This document shows, piece by piece, positions 3,166 to 15,207 of a stretch of DNA of 15,451 nt. The stretch is taken from contig PJAB01001311.1 of the NCBI GenBank assembly GCA_002887195.1, positions 1 to 15,451 on the forward strand, written 5' to 3'. Numbering within the stretch: the first letter of the stretch is position 1; each line of letters starts with the position of its first letter. This stretch comes from Chrysochromulina parva. Lineage: Eukaryota > Haptophyta > Prymnesiales > Chrysochromulinaceae. Made by a program: the position numbers and the translations under genes. The notes beneath the pieces are model-generated. The model ran no database searches and had not been told where the DNA came from. It saw nothing but the letters and a program-made list of their open reading frames with translations.

Positions 3166-6100
3166 TTACATGGGGTCGTCGGCGGACGGGAGCGCTGTCG
3201 TGAGCGCCTGCGCGGCGTGGGCGAAGGCTGAGCGCAACGGGCCGGCAGTTGCTGCAAATGGCGCGAGTCCCAGCCGGTGCACGTCCGCGAGGAGCTGCGG
3301 AGTGTCAATGTAGAAGCGGCACATGCGCCGCTCGTCCGCCGAGCAGAGAGCCCGCAGTTCCATCGATGCGAGATTGGGCTGGGCGAGCGTCTGCTGCAGC
3401 GCACCGTCCAGCGCAGCTGCCACTGCGCTGCTGCCGCCACCGCCGCCGACGGCACTACCGTAACCACTTTCAAGTAGGGCGGAGTGGCCGTACTCAACGG
3501 GCACAAGGCGCGTTCCCACGCCGCACCCAAAATCGGTCGAGAGCCAATCTGGGTGGGCGAGCTGACGGCCGCTGCGCTCGAGGGCCGCCTCCAAATGACG
3601 GCCGAGGGTGCTGCTGAGCACATGGCTGCCGCCCCCATGCTTGATGATGCTCGCGGAGACGCCGCTGCGCCGACCGCTGCGCTCGCCTCGTCCGCCTTTG
3701 CCGCCGCCGTTCTCCTTGCCCTCGCGTGTCGGGCGCGCGTTTAGGCGCGCGTCAGGGCGCTCGCGCAGCACCGCGTGGCGTGCGAGCCGAATCAGACGCG
3801 GCAGACGCGTGTACGGCAGCTCGGGATACAGCACGCACTCCATGAGTACTGCCCCTTCGAACTCGCCGATGACCCCCTTGTAGGCATCGGGCGAGAGCGA
3901 CACGCGGTGCGTGAAGCCCTGGCAGTGGAAGAAGGAGAGGGCAAATTGGTCTGCGTATGCGAGGATACGTCCAATGCGCTGCTGGAGCAGCTGAGCCTTG
4001 AGCCGGTTCATCAGGCGCGTGCCCAGCCCCTGCACCTGGCGCGAGCTCTCCACAGAGAAGAGGAGTAATTCCGCAAAGGCCGTCGACGACTCCGTTTGAG
4101 CGAGCTCGAGCGGCGCAGTCAGCGCAAGCAGCGCCGCCGCGCCATTGGCGTCGGCGGCAGCGGCAGCACTGCTCTTGTCGAGCGCGGCAGAAGCGTGGCG
4201 TGCGACGGCGGCGGCATCCCCAACGTGCTGGCACTCGGCGGCCATGCCAAGCGGGCCGACTGAGGCGGCGGCGGCCGGGTGCGGACGATAGAGCAGGCCG
4301 CCGCTCAGCACGCCGCGGCTGATGCATGCCATCGCCACATTCTTCGGGTCCAGCAGGCACTTAGTGAAGTACTTGTCGTCCATCTCCGGCAATTGAGCGC
4401 GGAAGAGCTCTTTGAGCAGAACAGCCGTTGAGAAGGAGGGCCCATGCTGCTCCAGCCCATCGAAGCGCACGAGCTCAAATCGCAGCTCACCTGCCGCCTC
4501 GGCGTCGCAGTGGCGCTCTTCGAGCTCCATGGCCGCCACCGCTCCGCGTCCGCCCGCGGCCATCAGACGGTCCTCGTCGTCGTCGCCCTCGGCGCACGGG
4601 TCGATGGGCGAGGCGGGGCACATTTGCAGCGCAGCTTCTGTCTCGGCAAGCTGGGCCGCCGTTGCCGCCTCCGCCGCCTCCGCCGCCGCCGCGGCCTCGT
4701 CCGCCGCAACTGCCTCGCACTCGACGTCGATCGCGTCGATGCCCAACTCGTCGACGAGTGCCATCGGCGGTGCAAGCGGCGGCAGTGCGTGCGGCCCGTC
4801 GTACTCTGTCGCCTCGAGGCTCACGTACGATGGGCTCAGCGGTTCCACTGGCTGTGATGATAGCAGCAGCACGAGCGCTGTCGCCGGTGCCGAAGGCGGC
4901 TCCATCACCGGAGCCGCTGACGGCATCGGCTCGTCGCCGAGGGAGGCTGCGAGCGGGCGCGGCAGCTCGAACGGGTCCTTTCCAAGCGCGAGTGCCGCCA
5001 TCGTCTGCTCGTCACGCGACGATTGTGCCTCGGTCTTCATGCGCTCGCCCCGCGCCGCAGCTTCACCGGGCATCATCTCGAGCCCCGCGGGCGCTGCGCG
5101 TATGGCCGCGAGCTCGTTGCTGACCAAAGTCCGCTTCTTCTTATTCTGCTGGCCGGCGTCCTCGGCCACCACGGCCGCATTGCGTGACGCTCGCGCCTCC
5201 TCCTCGTCGTCGTTGCTCTCCATGCACATGCTGCCGTTGGAAAAGGCCTCATCAGCTTCAGCCATCTCGGCTTCCATCTCGAGCGTTGTCGTGGGCTCCA
5301 CCTCTTCCTTCGGCGCCTCCGCCGCTGCGACTTTCTCCTCCTCTAGCTCCACCACTGCCTCCTCTTCCTCCTTCTCCGCCGCCTCCTCCTCATCCTCTTC
5401 TACCACCGCGAGCGTCTCTACCTCCTCCGCTACCACGGGCCGTGGAAGCTCAGCGCGCTCGCTCTCGGCCTCGGCGACGCCCCGTCGGAACTGGACGAGG
5501 CGCTTCGAGCCCTTGAGCTTGCTCTTGGCCTCACGCTCGCACTGCTCCCGGTGAGCTTCCCATGGCAGCTGGTGACGCGCCCACCCAAAGTCGGCGGTGC
5601 CAAAGAAGCGGACCCACGTGCAGCCGTCGCGCGCGCCGACAGTCGATGTGGGCGCCACGAGCGCCGCCGGCCAGTAAGGGAACCCGTCCATCTTGGCCCA
5701 CACGATCGTCCCCACATGCCCCGCGCGCGGCGCCGACACGGCGGGGTACATGGGCATGGGCTCGGGCTTGGGCTCGGGTTTGGGCTTGGGCTTGGGCTTG
5801 GGCTTGGGTGCGGGATCCTTCTCGGGCGCTGCGGCAGCACCGGTACTGGAGCTGTTGGGGAACATGCTGGCGGCCGCCTCTGCCGCCTGCTCCGCCGCCG
5901 CCGCAGCCGAAGCTGTTGCTGCCGCCGTTGCTGCCGCGGCGGTCTTGGCGTCGAGAGTCATGCGGCCAGCCGCTGAGGCGGCCGCCCTCTCCCTCGCAGC
6001 CGCCCGCTCCTCCGCCACTTTGAGTGCCGCTGCCGCTGCCGTGGCTGCTGTGGCGGCGAGGACGTTAGCTATGGCCTCATTCGCTCCGGCGGCCTTGATG

Positions 6101-7278
6101 GCTGCCACTGCGGCAGCAAACTTTGAGTCTCCTGCTGGGATCAGGCCCGGCGCCCAAGGCGCCAACCCGATTGTGGGAGTGGGTAGAGGCTCGGGCTCCT
6201 TGTCGGGCGCTGCGGCTTTGGGTAGAGGCTTGGATGCGGGCTTGGGCGCAGTCGTGGCACCATTCGTGCGCGCGCTCTTGCGCGTAGCCGCTGGGTCGGC
6301 CGTCGGCCGAAGACGCTTTGGCGGCGCGATCTTGAGCACTGCCGAGATGGCATCCGTCGGCTCGGCCGCGGCCTCGTGCGATGGTTCTGGCGTCGACCGT
6401 TGGCAGCGAAGGCTTGGGCGGCGACCCGTCGGCTCGGCAGCGGCCTCGTGCGATTCTTCGGTCGACTGTTCGAGCGTCGGTGCCTGCGCGAGCGTGCGCG
6501 TCGCAGCCGCGGGCGTCGCAGCCGTGGGCGTCCGGACACCGTGATCAGCCGCCTCCGCCGTTTCTCCCGTCTTCTTGTCCGGCTCGTGCGTGCTTTTTGT
6601 GTGCTTCAAACGCGCCCGTCGGTTCTGGAACCACACCTGGACCTGACGCGTGGTCATGTCGAGTTGCTCGCTCAGTTCGCGCGTCTGCTGGTCGGACGGA
6701 TACGCCTCCTGGTCAAAGGCCTTGAGGAGGATCTCCTTTTGTTGGTCATCTGTGAAAGCGTCGCGCGGGTGGAGGGAGCGATTGGCTGCCGCATCCATGG
6801 GCGCGGCGGCCTCCTTGCCCTGAGCGGCGGCACACGCAGGATCGACGCCTGCCGCTACCGCATCCGCTCCATCGTCCGCCTTGTGTCTCCGCAAACGTGG
6901 CCCCGCACGCGTAAGGGGGCGCTCGGCGAGTTGCTCGGACGTGGTCGACAACTTGCACTCGGACAAGTCGTGGAGGAGCTGCGTCTCGCAAGGAAGCATC
7001 ATCTCCTCCTGGGTGCACTTCGACTCTGCCTTCGTGGATGACGCTGCCGATTCTGGGTCCGCGGTCGCAGTGGGCTCGGCATTTCGTGTAGCGGCCGTGG
7101 TGAGTGCGTCGGGCCTGACGGGCACGGCGTCTGGTGAGGCCACCATGGCCACGTGGGCGGCATCGTTGGAACACGGCGAGACGAGGGCCAGCTGGTTCAG
7201 GTCATCCGCGAGGGCCTCAAGGGGACCGTGCACGTCGGGAGACGCGCTGTAAAAGAGGTCGAAGTTGCTGCCGCTCAT
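3166..7278 (-). CDS. Homeodomain-PWWP-Gcn5-type histone acetyltransferase fusion, 1370 aa
   Basis: One uninterrupted frame from ATG 7278 to the stop at 3166-3168. Domain order: homeodomain at about 167-228, with helix-3 signature RQVQVWFQNRRARLK (Trp216, Phe217, Asn219, Arg221 are the DNA-contact or core positions); Ala/Pro-rich linker with PPKRLRP (319-325), a possible NLS; KP repeat at 491-510; PWWP domain at about 518-600 (GTIVWAKMDGFPYWPA, then VRFFGTADFGW), the fold that binds methylated H3K36 plus DNA; acidic run at about 617-672; second basic patch NKKKR; Gcn5/PCAF-type GNAT domain at about 930-1160. The GNAT part has QLPEMDDKYF, FAELLLFSV with Glu1070 at the catalytic-base position (yeast Gcn5 E173), the acetyl-CoA loop QVQGLGTRLM (1081-1090), and AYADQFALSFFHCQGF. 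The substrate should be histone H3 lysines, in the nucleus. A 200-residue tail follows with no bromodomain. The acetyltransferase domain carries an Ala-rich insertion of about 65 residues (1000-1065). The promoter is shared with the coiled-coil gene. Confidence 0.9.
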   Translation of the reverse strand: MSGSNFDLFYSASPDVHGPLEALADDLNQLALVSPCSNDAAHVAMVASPDAVPVRPDALTTAATRNAEPTATADPESAASSTKAESKCTQEEMMLPCETQLLHDLSECKLSTTSEQLAERPLTRAGPRLRRHKADDGADAVAAGVDPACAAAQGKEAAAPMDAAANRSLHPRDAFTDDQQKEILLKAFDQEAYPSDQQTRELSEQLDMTTRQVQVWFQNRRARLKHTKSTHEPDKKTGETAEAADHGVRTPTAATPAAATRTLAQAPTLEQSTEESHEAAAEPTGRRPSLRCQRSTPEPSHEAAAEPTDAISAVLKIAPPKRLRPTADPAATRKSARTNGATTAPKPASKPLPKAAAPDKEPEPLPTPTIGLAPWAPGLIPAGDSKFAAAVAAIKAAGANEAIANVLAATAATAAAAALKVAEERAAARERAAASAAGRMTLDAKTAAAATAAATASAAAAAEQAAEAAASMFPNSSSTGAAAAPEKDPAPKPKPKPKPKPEPKPEPMPMYPAVSAPRAGHVGTIVWAKMDGFPYWPAALVAPTSTVGARDGCTWVRFFGTADFGWARHQLPWEAHREQCEREAKSKLKGSKRLVQFRRGVAEAESERAELPRPVVAEEVETLAVVEEDEEEAAEKEEEEAVVELEEEKVAAAEAPKEEVEPTTTLEMEAEMAEADEAFSNGSMCMESNDDEEEARASRNAAVVAEDAGQQNKKKRTLVSNELAAIRAAPAGLEMMPGEAAARGERMKTEAQSSRDEQTMAALALGKDPFELPRPLAASLGDEPMPSAAPVMEPPSAPATALVLLLSSQPVEPLSPSYVSLEATEYDGPHALPPLAPPMALVDELGIDAIDVECEAVAADEAAAAAEAAEAATAAQLAETEAALQMCPASPIDPCAEGDDDEDRLMAAGGRGAVAAMELEERHCDAEAAGELRFELVRFDGLEQHGPSFSTAVLLKELFRAQLPEMDDKYFTKCLLDPKNVAMACISRGVLSGGLLYRPHPAAAASVGPLGMAAECQHVGDAAAVARHASAALDKSSAAAAADANGAAALLALTAPLELAQTESSTAFAELLLFSVESSRQVQGLGTRLMNRLKAQLLQQRIGRILAYADQFALSFFHCQGFTHRVSLSPDAYKGVIGEFEGAVLMECVLYPELPYTRLPRLIRLARHAVLRERPDARLNARPTREGKENGGGKGGRGERSGRRSGVSASIIKHGGGSHVLSSTLGRHLEAALERSGRQLAHPDWLSTDFGCGVGTRLVPVEYGHSALLESGYGSAVGGGGGSSAVAAALDGALQQTLAQPNLASMELRALCSADERRMCRFYIDTPQLLADVHRLGLAPFAATAGPLRSAFAHAAQALTTALPSADDPM
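5749..5808 (-). repeat. Hexanucleotide repeat encoding Lys-Pro/Glu-Pro run
   Basis: Imperfect GGGCTT/GGGCTC hexamers on the plus strand encode alternating PK and PE dipeptides (residues 491-510) just before the PWWP domain. The run is a charged, extended spacer in a coding microsatellite and is likely length-variable between strains. Confidence 0.8.
6354..6453 (-). repeat. 72-bp-period direct repeat inside the fusion gene
   Basis: The stretch beginning CCGTCGGCTCGGC recurs 72 bp later (copies starting at 6354 and 6426, each about 28 bp, one clear mismatch). In protein it repeats SHEAAAEPT with a 24-residue period in the linker after the homeodomain. This looks like local slippage or duplication of a disordered linker. 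Confidence 0.75.
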
Positions 7279-7526
7279 GATGAAGTCAGGATCCGAAGTG
7301 GCGCGCGCGCGCCTTGGGAAAGGAGAGCACCGTTGATGATTTGCCGCGAAGCATGCAAACTGTCAAACGAGGATGGTAAATGTGGAAGGCAGACTGAAGG
7401 CATTACGAACGGGGATTTCAATAGCGTGAAACGACACGGGGCATTTGCATGCTTCGATCTGAATTACTTTTGGAAAACTACTGGCGACATTCACGATCCT
7501 GAACTGCAGCAAAACTTGTGGCTGCG
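7279..7526. promoter_or_regulatory. Divergent promoter of the acetyltransferase and coiled-coil genes
   Basis: These 248 bp separate ATG 7278 (-) and ATG 7527 (+) and are visibly richer in A/T than the flanking genes. They hold a 14-bp alternating GC palindrome at 7300-7313, probably in the acetyltransferase 5' UTR, and a perfect 13-bp inverted repeat with arms at 7347-7359 and 7444-7456. No TATA box is evident. The coiled-coil start is taken at the ATG at 7527 because the frame upstream offers only a GTG. Confidence 0.6.
7347..7456. repeat. 13-bp perfect inverted repeat in divergent promoter
   Basis: CGAAGCATGCAAA at 7347-7359 is the exact reverse complement of TTTGCATGCTTCG at 7444-7456, with 84 bp between them. 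The right arm extends to ATTTGCAT (7443-7450), identical to the POU-homeodomain octamer. Each arm also contains the self-complementary GCATGC. A function as paired transcription-factor sites is inference from position and symmetry. Confidence 0.7.
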
Positions 7527-10205
7527 ATGAGCTTGCGCTCCACGCTCAGCTTCAACCGTATCAAGAAAGCCGTCAAAGAGGTCAAAGGCGTCAATGCCTT
7601 CAGCTCACCGACCCGAAAGAGCGAGACGAGCTCTGCGGGGAACTCGCCAGGGGTGGATCCCTCACCGACACGTCTTCGGACGTTTGTGGAAGGCCTCGAA
7701 GAAGAGACCATTGGCATCGAGTCCAACCAGACAGATGTGATCGCGTCTCCCGTGACAGTGATCGCCAAGACGGCGGCTCCCGAGGTCGTGCAGGCGACGC
7801 CCGAGGTGGATGCGGCGCTCGCAGCGGCGGCGAAGGGATTCTCGGCGGCTGAGGCCGAGAAGGCGGCAATCACACTGCAGGCTGCCATTCGAGGAAAGGC
7901 GGATCGCGCCAAGGCGGCAGAGCTTCAGAAGGCGGAGGACCAGCTTGACTCGAGAGCCGAGCGCGAGCTCGAGAAGGAGATGAAGGAGATGCGCAGGAAG
8001 AAGGAGCAGGCGTTTGCCGCGGAGGAAGCTGCGCAGGCCCGCGCAGCGTATCAGGAGGCCCGAGCAGCCGAGGAGAAGCTCGAGAAGGTGAACGAGAAGG
8101 CCGCGCTCGAGGCCAAGATTGCGGCGATGAGCGAAGACGAGCTCGTCCGGATGCAGATGACCATGAAGCTCTCGAGCGATCTCGAGACGTGCGCCAAGTC
8201 GCTCGCGCTCGCGGCCAAGGCGGTCGTGGCCACCGAGCTCGAGATCGGCACCATCCAGGTGGGCCTGAAGGAGGATCGTGCGACGGAGACGCACAAGGTC
8301 GCCGAGTACGATCGGAACATCAAGTCCATCAACTCGATGCTCAAGCATGTCGAGGCGTACGATGAGCAGTGCAGCCAGCTGAGATACGAAGTCAACCAGC
8401 TTGTCTCGATGGAGAACCAGAGGCGCATCGACAGCTACGGCATCACGGGGCGCGTGCGGCGGGAGGTGACCGAGGCGCAGGACCGGATGGCCAAGCAGAC
8501 TGACAAGCTGCACATCATGCAAAACGAGCTCAAGAAAATGTACACACAGTATACGAGCGCAGAGAAGCAGTCGGAGGCGCAGTTCAGCACCATCTCAAGC
8601 GAGGTGGTCGGCAAGACGCTTCGGGTGGAGCTCGCTGAGCATCGCCTCTCGCACCTTCGGGCGGAGCAGAAGAAGCTGAACGAGCAGGTGGCCGAGAACA
8701 CTCGTTTCATCGACTCAAAGACGCGCCGCGTCTCGTCGACGACCGCGCAGGTGGAGGAGATCAAGGCCAAGATGGCGCTCGATGAGCAAACTATCGGTGG
8801 GTGCAAGGCCCGCGAAGCGGAGCTCTACGCCGAGGACCAGCTCGCCGAGGCGCAGAAGGAGCACAAGGTGCGTGAGTTCGACGCGGACCGGGACTCGCTG
8901 CGCTCGCTCATCGCGCTGCAGGAGTCGTTCCGGTCGGACAAGCTGATGAGACTCGACGAGGAGCTCACGAGCAACCCTGTGCTGGGAGATCAGGGAGATC
9001 CGACCAAGAAGACTCTGCTCGAACGCGCGCGCGCGCTTGTCGAGAAGACCTTGAGTGACAGCAAGGGGCGACTGGCGCTCATTGAGCAGGCTGCGAGCAC
9101 GTACATGCACAAGTACGACGAGGCGAAGGGTCTTCGTGACTCGGAGCTGCGCCAGCTGCGCGCCGAGCGCCGGGCGCTCGTGACAGTGCACGCCGAGAGA
9201 AACCGCTACCTGCACGAGAAGAGGAACCAGCTCGAAATCGAGGAGAAGCAGCTCGCTCGAGCGGAGGGCACCATGCTCGACCACAAGTACTGCATGAGCG
9301 TGCTGCAGACGGAGCACGACCTCTTGCAGAAGACCATCAATGAGCGACAGGACGAGCTGGCCGCCGCCTACAGCCTCAAGCAGGCTCTCGGCACAAAGCT
9401 CGAGAGCGTCCAGACGTCCAACATGCTCAACCTCGGCCGCATGAGAATGGCCATCGAGTCGGAGTCGAGGGTGGTCACGGAACAGCAAGCGTACATCGAG
9501 TCGCTGATGGGCCGCATGCAGCACAATGAAGGTACCGTCATTGAGGAGAATAGCACCGTCAAGCAGCAGGTGGCCGCGATGGAGAAGACGGGAGTGGAGG
9601 AAGCCCCGGTGGAGCCAATCCAAGGGAATCACGGCCTCGCGCTTGCGCACAGTAACGAGCTCGCCGTACACCTATTGGTGGACGATCTCAAGGCGCAGCG
9701 AGCGCAAGCGACGCAAGGGTTGCTCGCCTCGCAGGAGAAGCTCGAGGCCGTCGAAAAGGCGGCGCAGACCGCCCTGGCCGCCGTGGATGCGGAGCGCTTC
9801 ACGCTACAGCACGAGATGTCGAACCTGCACCAGTACAGGCTCTCTCTCGAGTCGAGGCTCGCGGCCATCTCGCCCTGTCCCCCATCTCCCCCCAAGATCA
9901 CAGACGTGCCGGCGTCGCCGAATGGCGATCTCATCAAGCCGGAGGCCGATGAGCATGATCACTCGCCGCCCTCAGACCGGTCGACCCCAACGCCATACCG
10001 TACGACCAACAGGCTCCTCGTCACCTCCGACAAGTTTAGCCCCCCTCTGTCGCAGTCCGGCAATCTCACCGGTGCCCTGTATGGCGCCTCCCTCGACGAT
10101 GAGGCGAATCATTCGATGTACAATCCCGACATTAAGGTGGACGACTCGCCCTCGAGTGAGAAACGGACCACAATTCGGTCCCGCATCTTTGGCCGTTCCG
10201 CGTGA
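7527..10205 (+). CDS. IQ-motif long coiled-coil protein, 892 aa
   Basis: A single-exon frame starting at ATG 7527 and ending in TGA. The N-terminus (residues 1-25) is basic and amphipathic (FNRIKKAVKEVKG), followed by a Ser/Thr-Pro region. An IQ-like calmodulin or myosin-light-chain-binding motif lies at about 113-127 (AAITLQAAIRGKADR, approximating IQxxxRGxxxR with Leu replacing Ile). Residues 128 to about 780 are almost entirely charged heptad-like coiled coil, broken by NPVLGDQGDPT at about 483-493 and a loop at about 687-712. The tail (781-892) is disordered, with several S/T-P sites and a basic end. This architecture suits a cytoskeletal, centrosomal or basal-body structural protein, but long coiled coils are poor guides to orthology and I assign no name. 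It shares a promoter with the acetyltransferase gene. Confidence 0.85.
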   Translation: MSLRSTLSFNRIKKAVKEVKGVNAFSSPTRKSETSSAGNSPGVDPSPTRLRTFVEGLEEETIGIESNQTDVIASPVTVIAKTAAPEVVQATPEVDAALAAAAKGFSAAEAEKAAITLQAAIRGKADRAKAAELQKAEDQLDSRAERELEKEMKEMRRKKEQAFAAEEAAQARAAYQEARAAEEKLEKVNEKAALEAKIAAMSEDELVRMQMTMKLSSDLETCAKSLALAAKAVVATELEIGTIQVGLKEDRATETHKVAEYDRNIKSINSMLKHVEAYDEQCSQLRYEVNQLVSMENQRRIDSYGITGRVRREVTEAQDRMAKQTDKLHIMQNELKKMYTQYTSAEKQSEAQFSTISSEVVGKTLRVELAEHRLSHLRAEQKKLNEQVAENTRFIDSKTRRVSSTTAQVEEIKAKMALDEQTIGGCKAREAELYAEDQLAEAQKEHKVREFDADRDSLRSLIALQESFRSDKLMRLDEELTSNPVLGDQGDPTKKTLLERARALVEKTLSDSKGRLALIEQAASTYMHKYDEAKGLRDSELRQLRAERRALVTVHAERNRYLHEKRNQLEIEEKQLARAEGTMLDHKYCMSVLQTEHDLLQKTINERQDELAAAYSLKQALGTKLESVQTSNMLNLGRMRMAIESESRVVTEQQAYIESLMGRMQHNEGTVIEENSTVKQQVAAMEKTGVEEAPVEPIQGNHGLALAHSNELAVHLLVDDLKAQRAQATQGLLASQEKLEAVEKAAQTALAAVDAERFTLQHEMSNLHQYRLSLESRLAAISPCPPSPPKITDVPASPNGDLIKPEADEHDHSPPSDRSTPTPYRTTNRLLVTSDKFSPPLSQSGNLTGALYGASLDDEANHSMYNPDIKVDDSPSSEKRTTIRSRIFGRSA

Positions 10206-13633: not shown

Positions 13634-15207
13634 ATGGACACCAGCATGCATTTGTGAGTTCACTCAAGTTCCGCACTGTTTTCTGTTTCGAGAGCTCCAG
13701 TTACTCCAGCATGCTTCATAGTACATACAACTCCCCCGCCCCCAGGCCCAGCACGAGGCAGAGCGCGACCGCCAACATAAACGTCCGTCCGTCGGTTAGC
13801 AGAGAGGCCCAACATAAGTTCGCTGACAAAGAGGAGGCGCGCAAGTACCTCCTGGCTCATGGCGTGGACACAGCCACATGGGGGGCAAACGGCGCCAAGC
13901 GTGTCGAGGACCTGCTCGAGGAGATGCAGGACAAAGAAATTTCACTGCAGCTCATCGATGGCAAGATGTACCGCACCGTGGGTTTGGTGAAAGTCGTGGT
14001 GCGTAATCCGGAGGTCCCGAGGCACCACCTTGTTTGCTACGAGCAGCAGTTGGCCGACGGGCGCAAGCGCCCATGCAACGCGCTTCTGGCGGAGAAGAAG
14101 AAGCCCGACGAGACCGCGCAGCAGGCGGCGACCCGAGCCATCGAGAAGGAGCTGGGCAGCGTGCTTCCCCACGTGCTGCCCCAAGAGCTGGGCAGCGTGC
14201 TGCGCATGGGCACCTGGCTGCGTTTGGAGAAGATCGAAGAGCCACACCTGGGATCCCGAAGAGACGTGAGAAGCAGAGACGGGAGGACTGCTCGGGCGGA
14301 CTCCTCGACGTCATACCCGACGCTCTGCACGCGGCGCGAACTGCATCAAGTGGAGGTGCACGTGCGCGGCCTGCCCATCCAGCCTTTCGTCTCGGAGCTC
14401 ATCACAGACTACGTAGGCGATGGCACGAGCAAGTGCAAGGGCTGGAAGTGGGTTCGCGACTCGGAGGAAGATCTTCGGCACGAGGGGCTCGGCCCTCGCC
14501 TTCGCCCCTCGACAGCCCAAGCAGAAGGTGACCAGCGCAAGGGTTTTGACGTGTCGTTCATCAACTCGCCGATGGGCTCTGCCACCTACTGGCCGGCGGC
14601 GACTGCCTACTTGTCGCCGCGCCGCTGGCATCGCTGGCAGCCTGCCGTGAGCAACGGGGCGGGGATACTCACCCCGATGAAGTGGAATGGGCGCCAGCCT
14701 CCGCCGATCGGGTCGCGTGCGTTTACTTATGACCATGTACCGCCGATGTCGCACGTGGGGTTGCGCAGTGCGGACTTACGACGGCCTGCAAACAATGACG
14801 TGGTTGCCTCAATGCCGATCCCGGCCTGCAGTCCCGCCTTGGAAGAGGTGCTCGCGCCTCCGTACTCCCAGCATGGGGGGACACCGTCGCCGCGAGGCAT
14901 GCGCGTGCCGCTCCGTCGCGTGGGTGTGGCCAAATCTGTGCAGGAGGGTAAGGATGAGCAGGTGGATCTGGCGGCTGCAGCTGTCGGGGCACCGGCATCC
15001 ACGGTGCCGCATGCCCTTATTCGCCGGCTGTACACGAGTCCTGGGCTCCAGGACACGTCCACTGAAAATGACGAGGGCTTCATAAGTACAAGGCCGTTCT
15101 CGGCGAGAGCTCGCGCGCGCCGGCTCGCGACGCGCGTGCACATGATGCGCGTGCATGCGCATGCATCGAGGGGAAGTCTGTTGAAGTTCAGCCATGGTGC
15201 AACATGA
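13634..15207 (+). CDS. Degenerate Nudix-like domain protein, about 493 aa
   Basis: My model is exon 1 at 13634-13653 (MDTSMH plus two bases), an intron at 13654-13745, and exon 2 at 13746-15207. The frame without splicing has its first ATG at 13711, the fallback start. In the spliced protein, residues about 30-75 (KEEARKYLLAHGVDTATWG...AKRVEDLLEE) precede a Nudix-like region at about 78-250. The Nudix box is PDETAQQAATRAIEKELG: the E-x7-R spacing, the last Glu (142) and the Gly (144) remain. The leading Gly is Glu, and two of the three glutamates of REUxEE are Ala138 and Lys141, so diphosphate hydrolysis is doubtful. SYPTLCTRRELHQVEVHVRG follows. From about residue 260 the protein is low-complexity Pro/Arg/Ser with no domain I recognise. 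It probably belongs to a protist family of inactive Nudix-like proteins; function is unknown. Confidence 0.65.
13654..13745 (+). other. Predicted GT-AG intron, 92 nt
   Basis: The donor GTGAGT follows a short ATG-initiated exon (13634-13653), and the acceptor is a C-rich tract ending CCCCCAG at 13745. Splicing joins TT to G (Leu) and enters the long frame at PSTRQSATAN. Without splicing, ATG 13634 hits a TGA after seven codons, and the long frame would begin at ATG 13711, inside this proposed intron. Confidence 0.5.
14149..14201 (+). repeat. 17-bp direct repeat within the Nudix-like region
   Basis: GAGCTGGGCAGCGTGCT occurs at 14149-14165 and at 14185-14201, a 36-bp period. In protein, ELGSVL repeats 12 residues apart, immediately after the Nudix-like box. 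The exact nucleotide identity suggests a recent small duplication in the fold. Confidence 0.85.

Follow-up and report, generated by a model that had tools for sequence, protein, structure and literature searches.

A single open frame in DNA of the haptophyte Chrysochromulina parva is predicted to encode a Gcn5/PCAF-type acetyltransferase that carries, in one chain of 1370 residues, a homeodomain and a PWWP domain ahead of its GNAT domain. The frame occupies positions 3166..7278 on the minus strand of the window, by which we mean the whole stretch of 15,451 nucleotides that was analysed (contig PJAB01001311.1), with an ATG at 7278 and a TAA at 3166. The three-domain chain suggests an enzyme equipped with its own chromatin address label. 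In the reading we prefer, with a probability of roughly 60%, the acetyltransferase would be docked by its own homeodomain and PWWP domain and would acetylate nearby histone tails, the catalytic core being constant among related proteins and the targeting modules varying.

The original prediction gave the correct coordinates and did not name the strand, which is minus by ORF analysis. The plus strand over 3166-7278 contains stops in all frames, and the remaining two minus-strand frames contain 24 and 26. The frame measures 1398 codons from stop to stop and 1370 codons from the ATG. With a G+C content of 67–69% and domains that sit on long low-complexity linkers, the region invites the suspicion of a joining artefact, in which two or three adjacent genes or exons are read as one because stops are few in GC-rich DNA, or in which the assembly itself is wrong. 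We regard this as very improbable. When the window was copied 1000 times by a first-order Markov model, the longest open frame in any of the six reading frames reached 595 codons (mean 336, 95th percentile 447), which rejects a chance frame of 1370 codons and upholds the uninterrupted frame originally described. Third-position G+C is 0.776 for the 1370-codon frame as a whole; in 23 bins of 60 codons, which take in the linkers, it ranges from 0.62 to 0.88, and it exceeds second-position G+C in 20 of these bins. Positions 3166..7278 most likely constitute one protein-coding gene, predicted to translate 4.1 kb without introns. A counterpoint to the intronless reading is the C750 gene, on another contig of the same genome, which is interrupted by stops and apparently contains introns.

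The homeodomain (residues 172-225; 6604..6765, minus strand) is matched by PF00046 with E 4.1e-17 (62.2 bits against a cut-off of 22.9) and by the engrailed and DUX4 homeodomains in PDB. The canonical helix 3 motif on which its prediction had rested, WFQNRR, is found at residues 216-221. We take R172 to be homeodomain position 5, and V215, W216, F217, Q218, N219 and R221 to be positions 47-51 and 53, which gives a domain with a recognition helix and N51. By manual count, helix 1 or the part before it is longer by one residue when the stretch F175-W216 is compared with what we assume to be the F-W spacing of engrailed; the three-residue loop extension is absent and the domain is not of the TALE type. 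The combination of Q50, N51 and R5 is that of TAAT-type homeodomains, and a TAAT-like site is the most likely target predicted from these residues.

The PWWP domain (residues 523-607; 5458..5712, minus strand) is likewise where it had been expected, with a PF00855 match of E 3.1e-12 (47.3 bits against a cut-off of 25.6), the motifs PYW and FFGT, and an alignment to the PWWP domains of HDGF and DNMT3B. Its putative methyl-lysine cage consists of the residues M530, W536 and F558, in agreement with the HDGF alignment; they presumably correspond to M15, W21 and F44 of the LEDGF cage. Judged from these residues, the domain would most likely bind methylated H3K36.

The GNAT domain is divided into two halves. 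The N-terminal half (residues 953-1002; 4273..4422, minus strand) is delimited by alignment to PCAF (PDB 1cm0, domain 1), and a yeast Gcn5 query matches it weakly, at 4276-4416 with E 0.006. The C-terminal half (residues 1066-1157; 3808..4083, minus strand) contains E1070, the sequence QVQGLGT at 1081-1087 and the LMEC and PYT motifs. E1070 aligns with the catalytic Glu of yeast Gcn5 and PCAF, and QVQGLGT with their acetyl-CoA loop; on our understanding of which Gcn5/PCAF residues are catalytic, E1070 is the putative catalytic Glu, accompanied by a Q/R-x-x-G-x-G/A loop. A phmmer comparison with PDB sequences gave PCAF at 2.4e-23 and KAT2A at 7e-23, and PCAF, KAT2A and Gcn5 entries were the best PDB matches for the GNAT stretch, so that the claim of a Gcn5/PCAF catalytic domain with Glu and loop intact holds. 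From the residues involved, the domain would most likely acetylate histones, probably H3. AlphaFold models of the PWWP domain (pLDDT 46.7, with 1 sequence in the alignment) and of residues 922-1370 (pLDDT 37.5, with 5 sequences) are of low confidence and lend the folds no structural support.

Between the two halves lies an alanine-rich insertion of 63 residues (1003-1065; 4084..4272, minus strand), at what we take, from comparison with PCAF and its strand names, to be the beta3-beta4 turn. This interruption of the catalytic domain, together with a generic Pfam GNAT score barely above its cut-off (PF00583, 21.5 bits against 20.7), would suit an acetyltransferase that has been repurposed, acting on non-histone substrates or weakly, in a protein that serves mainly as a DNA-binding scaffold. 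We think this quite unlikely: the window protein and both of its more distant relatives (P0004 and P0005, see below) retain the acetyl-CoA loop and the Glu that aligns with the catalytic one, the GNAT halves differ at only 1 of 178 residues from the close relative P0003 and are among the most constrained parts of the protein, and the insertion sits between two strands and varies in length among relatives. A retained intron is also disfavoured as an explanation of the insertion. It is nearly unchanged in two close relatives (0 of 63 residues differ in P0002 and 1 of 63 in P0003), and its counterparts decrease in length from the window protein through P0005 to P0004, which gives it the look of a loop whose length varies within the family.

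The original prediction had proposed a tree of the GNAT domain against Gcn5 and PCAF. We built one with 12 rows, consisting of the GNAT domains of the window protein, P0004, P0005, yeast Gcn5, PCAF, C750 and six others from the genome. Eight GNAT loci were sampled among at least 46 genome matches; seven were used in trees, six of them in the 12-row tree. The window domain grouped with yeast Gcn5, PCAF and C750 against the six other genome domains with support 100/99. When two long rows (C956 and L004) were added, giving 14 rows, the support for the group was 80/84 and C956 fell inside it. In the 12-row tree, a position of C750 outside the window protein, P0004, P0005, Gcn5 and PCAF had low support (62/44).

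Like Gcn5/PCAF (KAT2A/KAT2B), the window protein thus has the catalytic domain, the aligned catalytic Glu, the acetyl-CoA loop and a place in the same tree group. Unlike them, it carries an insertion in the GNAT domain, a homeodomain and a PWWP domain ahead of it, and no bromodomain after it. Pfam detected no bromodomain in the 1370 residues with E up to 1, in accord with what had been noted from the letters. KAT2 proteins have a C-terminal bromodomain; the window protein has a different conserved C-terminal region (residues 1225-1341; 3256..3606, minus strand), which is common to P0004 and P0005 and has no Pfam match. A cryptic bromodomain in this region was rejected: a profile of its three sequences compared with a profile of 9 bromodomains gave an hhalign probability of 0.1%, whereas the same bromodomain profile recognized the partial bromodomain of C750 with 91.7%. 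Nor was any known fold assigned to the region, the only PDB matches being weak ones to gyrase A (best E 0.076). The label "Gcn5" therefore stands as regards the type of catalytic domain, and needs qualification as regards the family, which lacks a bromodomain, has an insertion in the GNAT domain and possesses a conserved C-terminal region of its own.

Homologues were sought among 5.8 billion proteins by a search that requires shared five-residue words and candidates of limited length, and which spliced or distant relatives may escape. The first search, in which at least 7990 candidates were scored, took many of its words from the alanine-rich insertion, and later searches were therefore seeded with the second GNAT half only (117 and 145 candidates). 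Two proteins are near-identical to the window protein: P0002, with 28 member sequences (JGI and ENA), and P0003, with 3 members and a contig of 19,185 bases. Both share its start, MSGSNFDLF, have the homeodomain, PWWP and GNAT domains in the same order, and keep all five motif strings tested; in P0002 the residue directly after WFQNRR has changed from A to V. As P0002 and P0003 come from other data and carry all three domains, an artefact of a single assembly is rejected. Gaps relative to P0003 occur in linkers only; those relative to P0002 also occur in linkers, apart from three extra residues at the extreme C-terminal end. This indicates that the frame is kept through changes in linker length and argues further against the joining of separate genes or exons.

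The distribution of amino acid changes relative to P0003 is uneven. The linkers and N-terminus differ at 46 of 826 aligned residues, compared with 4 of 327 in the homeodomain, PWWP and GNAT domains together; the C-terminal part has no change in 149 residues. The three domains and the C-terminal part both differ significantly from the linkers (p = 6e-4 each by Fisher's exact test). The homeodomain and PWWP domain by themselves (3 of 149 against 46 of 826) do not differ significantly from the linkers (p = 0.07). P0002 and P0003 are the only two close proteins that the search returned.

With other size limits, the search with the second GNAT half returned its 145 candidates, of which two were matches, P0004 and P0005, both from ENA. 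The GNAT piece of P0004 is 60% identical to that of the window protein; the protein, of 346 residues on a contig of 1,514 bases, is too short to judge the N-terminal domains. P0005, with a GNAT piece 53% identical, is a single frame of 931 residues on a contig of 5,837 bases, and its long N-terminal part in one frame also speaks against a joining artefact in the window. P0004 and P0005 share with the window protein the GNAT domain and the C-terminal region of about 117 residues. P0005 had no homeodomain or PWWP match in Pfam; its start, MS..DLF, resembles that of the window protein, and the remainder of its N-terminal half aligns unconvincingly. A SAP domain suspected by eye in P0005 found no Pfam support. 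These comparisons indicate that the constant part consists of the GNAT domain and the C-terminal region, and that the targeting modules differ. Judged by its sequence, the window protein is a member of a bromodomain-less Gcn5-like family with differing predicted targeting modules. Among viral contigs there was one pattern match, and none was confirmed.

We also surveyed the draft genome (45.07 Mb in 2199 contigs), which may be incomplete. Profile searches gave at least 46 GNAT, at least 20 bromodomain, at least 10 PWWP and at least 27 homeodomain matches. Among the matches listed, only the contig of the window bears both a homeodomain and a PWWP domain, and bromodomain and GNAT matches share a contig only in C750. 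PWWP and GNAT matches, again among those listed, fall within a single frame both in the window and in C956, and in C227 they lie on one contig but in different frames; on C1076, roughly 7 kb separates a homeodomain from a GNAT domain on the other strand. C750 (L023:68-4696) encodes a bromodomain, a PHD finger and a Gcn5-type GNAT domain in pieces over about 4.6 kb. Its interruptions contain short tandem repeats and have GCCTCCCTCATCAG in common, which gives the introns the look of being related to one another. C956 (L036:2340-6857) is a frame of 1505 codons with PWWP, PHD and GNAT domains and a sub-threshold Agenet match; the long C-terminal part that follows has no Pfam match and, by eye, begins like a methyltransferase (MEAFAGSG).

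The genome thus offers a second gene of Gcn5 type, this one bearing a bromodomain, as the original prediction had suggested looking for, with the domains in the order bromodomain-PHD-GNAT; no gene with a GNAT domain followed by a bromodomain was found in the draft with the yeast Gcn5 query and the profile searches. Since the completeness of the draft is not given and matching proceeded exon by exon, the failure to find an orthodox Gcn5 counts for little. The best bromodomain for the yeast Gcn5 query lies in C743 (L037), in a frame of 380 codons starting from 850, on a contig with no GNAT match; by eye, this frame has a SANT-like N-terminal stretch.

It is possible, if on balance unlikely, that the window protein is the working Gcn5 of the alga within an ADA2-containing coactivator module, having lost or never possessed a bromodomain and having gained the homeodomain and PWWP domain as modulators, with targeting left mostly to the complex. 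With the yeast Gcn5 HAT domain as query, the window protein is the top of two clear Gcn5-type domains in the genome (E 1e-16, followed by C750 with 6e-15 and, next, C1817 with 0.015), and C614 bears an ADA2-type domain (PF22941, E 8.5e-25), for which a Gcn5-like partner would be expected. However, C750 is an equally possible ADA2 partner, PF22941 by itself is no proof of a SAGA complex, and the draft from which the ranking derives may lack genes.

Several other features of the window and the genome were recorded. On the plus strand of the window, a divergent neighbour at 7518-10205 is a frame of 895 residues that by eye resembles a coiled coil and has a single IQ motif below threshold; its listed start is GTG, about 240 bases from the ATG of the homeodomain gene. 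A further plus-strand frame of 517 residues at 13654-15207 has a sub-threshold NUDIX match (E 0.08). The genome contains light-harvesting genes (at least 58 PF00504 matches); one sampled protein (L048) matched light-harvesting proteins in PDB, the top four entries being LHCI chains from 9vfj and several of those that follow bearing the name fucoxanthin protein or iFCPI. Such matches fit a photosynthetic eukaryote of the chlorophyll a/c type, perhaps a haptophyte; iFCPI is a name used for Isochrysis.

Chromatin readers and acetyltransferases occur together in several settings. C750 resembles the window protein in having a Gcn5-type GNAT domain (KAT2A, 1e-20) beside chromatin readers; it is 22% identical over the GNAT stretch and has a bromodomain and a PHD finger instead of a homeodomain or PWWP match. 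Arabidopsis IDM1 is itself a PHD-GNAT protein and is not known to have a homeodomain or PWWP domain. The IDM1 complex relies on DNA-binding partners (HDP1/HDP2, MBD7) to send the acetyltransferase to chosen loci (PMC5758694), that is, on separate subunits, unlike the window protein. The PWWP protein Pdp3 reads H3K36me3 and guides Mst2/Sas3 in NuA3b/Mst2C (PMC7052950), and an H3K36me3-reading PWWP domain guides the acetyltransferase in MOZ-BRPF1 (PMC9873972); there the PWWP domain belongs to a separate subunit and the enzyme is of the MYST type, whereas in the window protein it shares a chain with a Gcn5-type enzyme and a homeodomain. A survey that covers the PWWP proteins of animals, plants and green algae describes lineage-specific PWWP combinations in algae; its text has no word starting with "acetyl" or "gnat" and two starting with "homeo", one of them "homeostasis" (PMC3457860). 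The open-licence PMC literature searched, judged by titles and the starts of abstracts among the matches listed, yielded no description of a homeodomain-PWWP-Gcn5 protein, consistent with the earlier statement that none was known. The combination of homeodomain, PWWP and Gcn5-type GNAT domains therefore looks new, while the gain of PWWP domains and the joining of readers to acetyltransferases are already known habits.

We return to the preferred reading, an acetyltransferase docked by its own domains. In this scheme, the homeodomain would read a TAAT-like DNA site and the PWWP domain would hold H3K36-methylated nucleosomes through its methyl-lysine cage, the two together docking the enzyme on chosen nucleosomes. 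The GNAT domain would then acetylate nearby histone tails, probably those of H3, with the long flexible linkers providing reach; the GNAT core and C-terminal region would be the constant part of the family, and the targeting modules would differ between its members. We infer DNA and histone binding, catalysis, substrate and this division of labour from the sequence. The chain points to built-in chromatin targeting, and probably DNA targeting, of a Gcn5-type enzyme. Of the original claim of built-in targeting, the presence of three domains in one frame stands; the reader-acetyltransferase combinations of C750 and C956 show that such targeting would not be unique to this gene.

On the usual view, an acetyltransferase is directed to its genes by other proteins, namely transcription factors and subunits of its complex. 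We offer, as a speculation that is unlikely to be right, the notion that Gcn5 was rebuilt in an algal lineage, where the acetyl-lysine reader is gone, one chain acts as transcription factor, H3K36me reader and writer, and the family swaps its targeting modules. A natural single chain that unites DNA recognition, a reader of methylated histones and a Gcn5-type enzyme would provide a simple test system for the targeting capacity of the enzyme itself, and a constant catalytic core with differing address domains would show how protists rewire the control of their chromatin.
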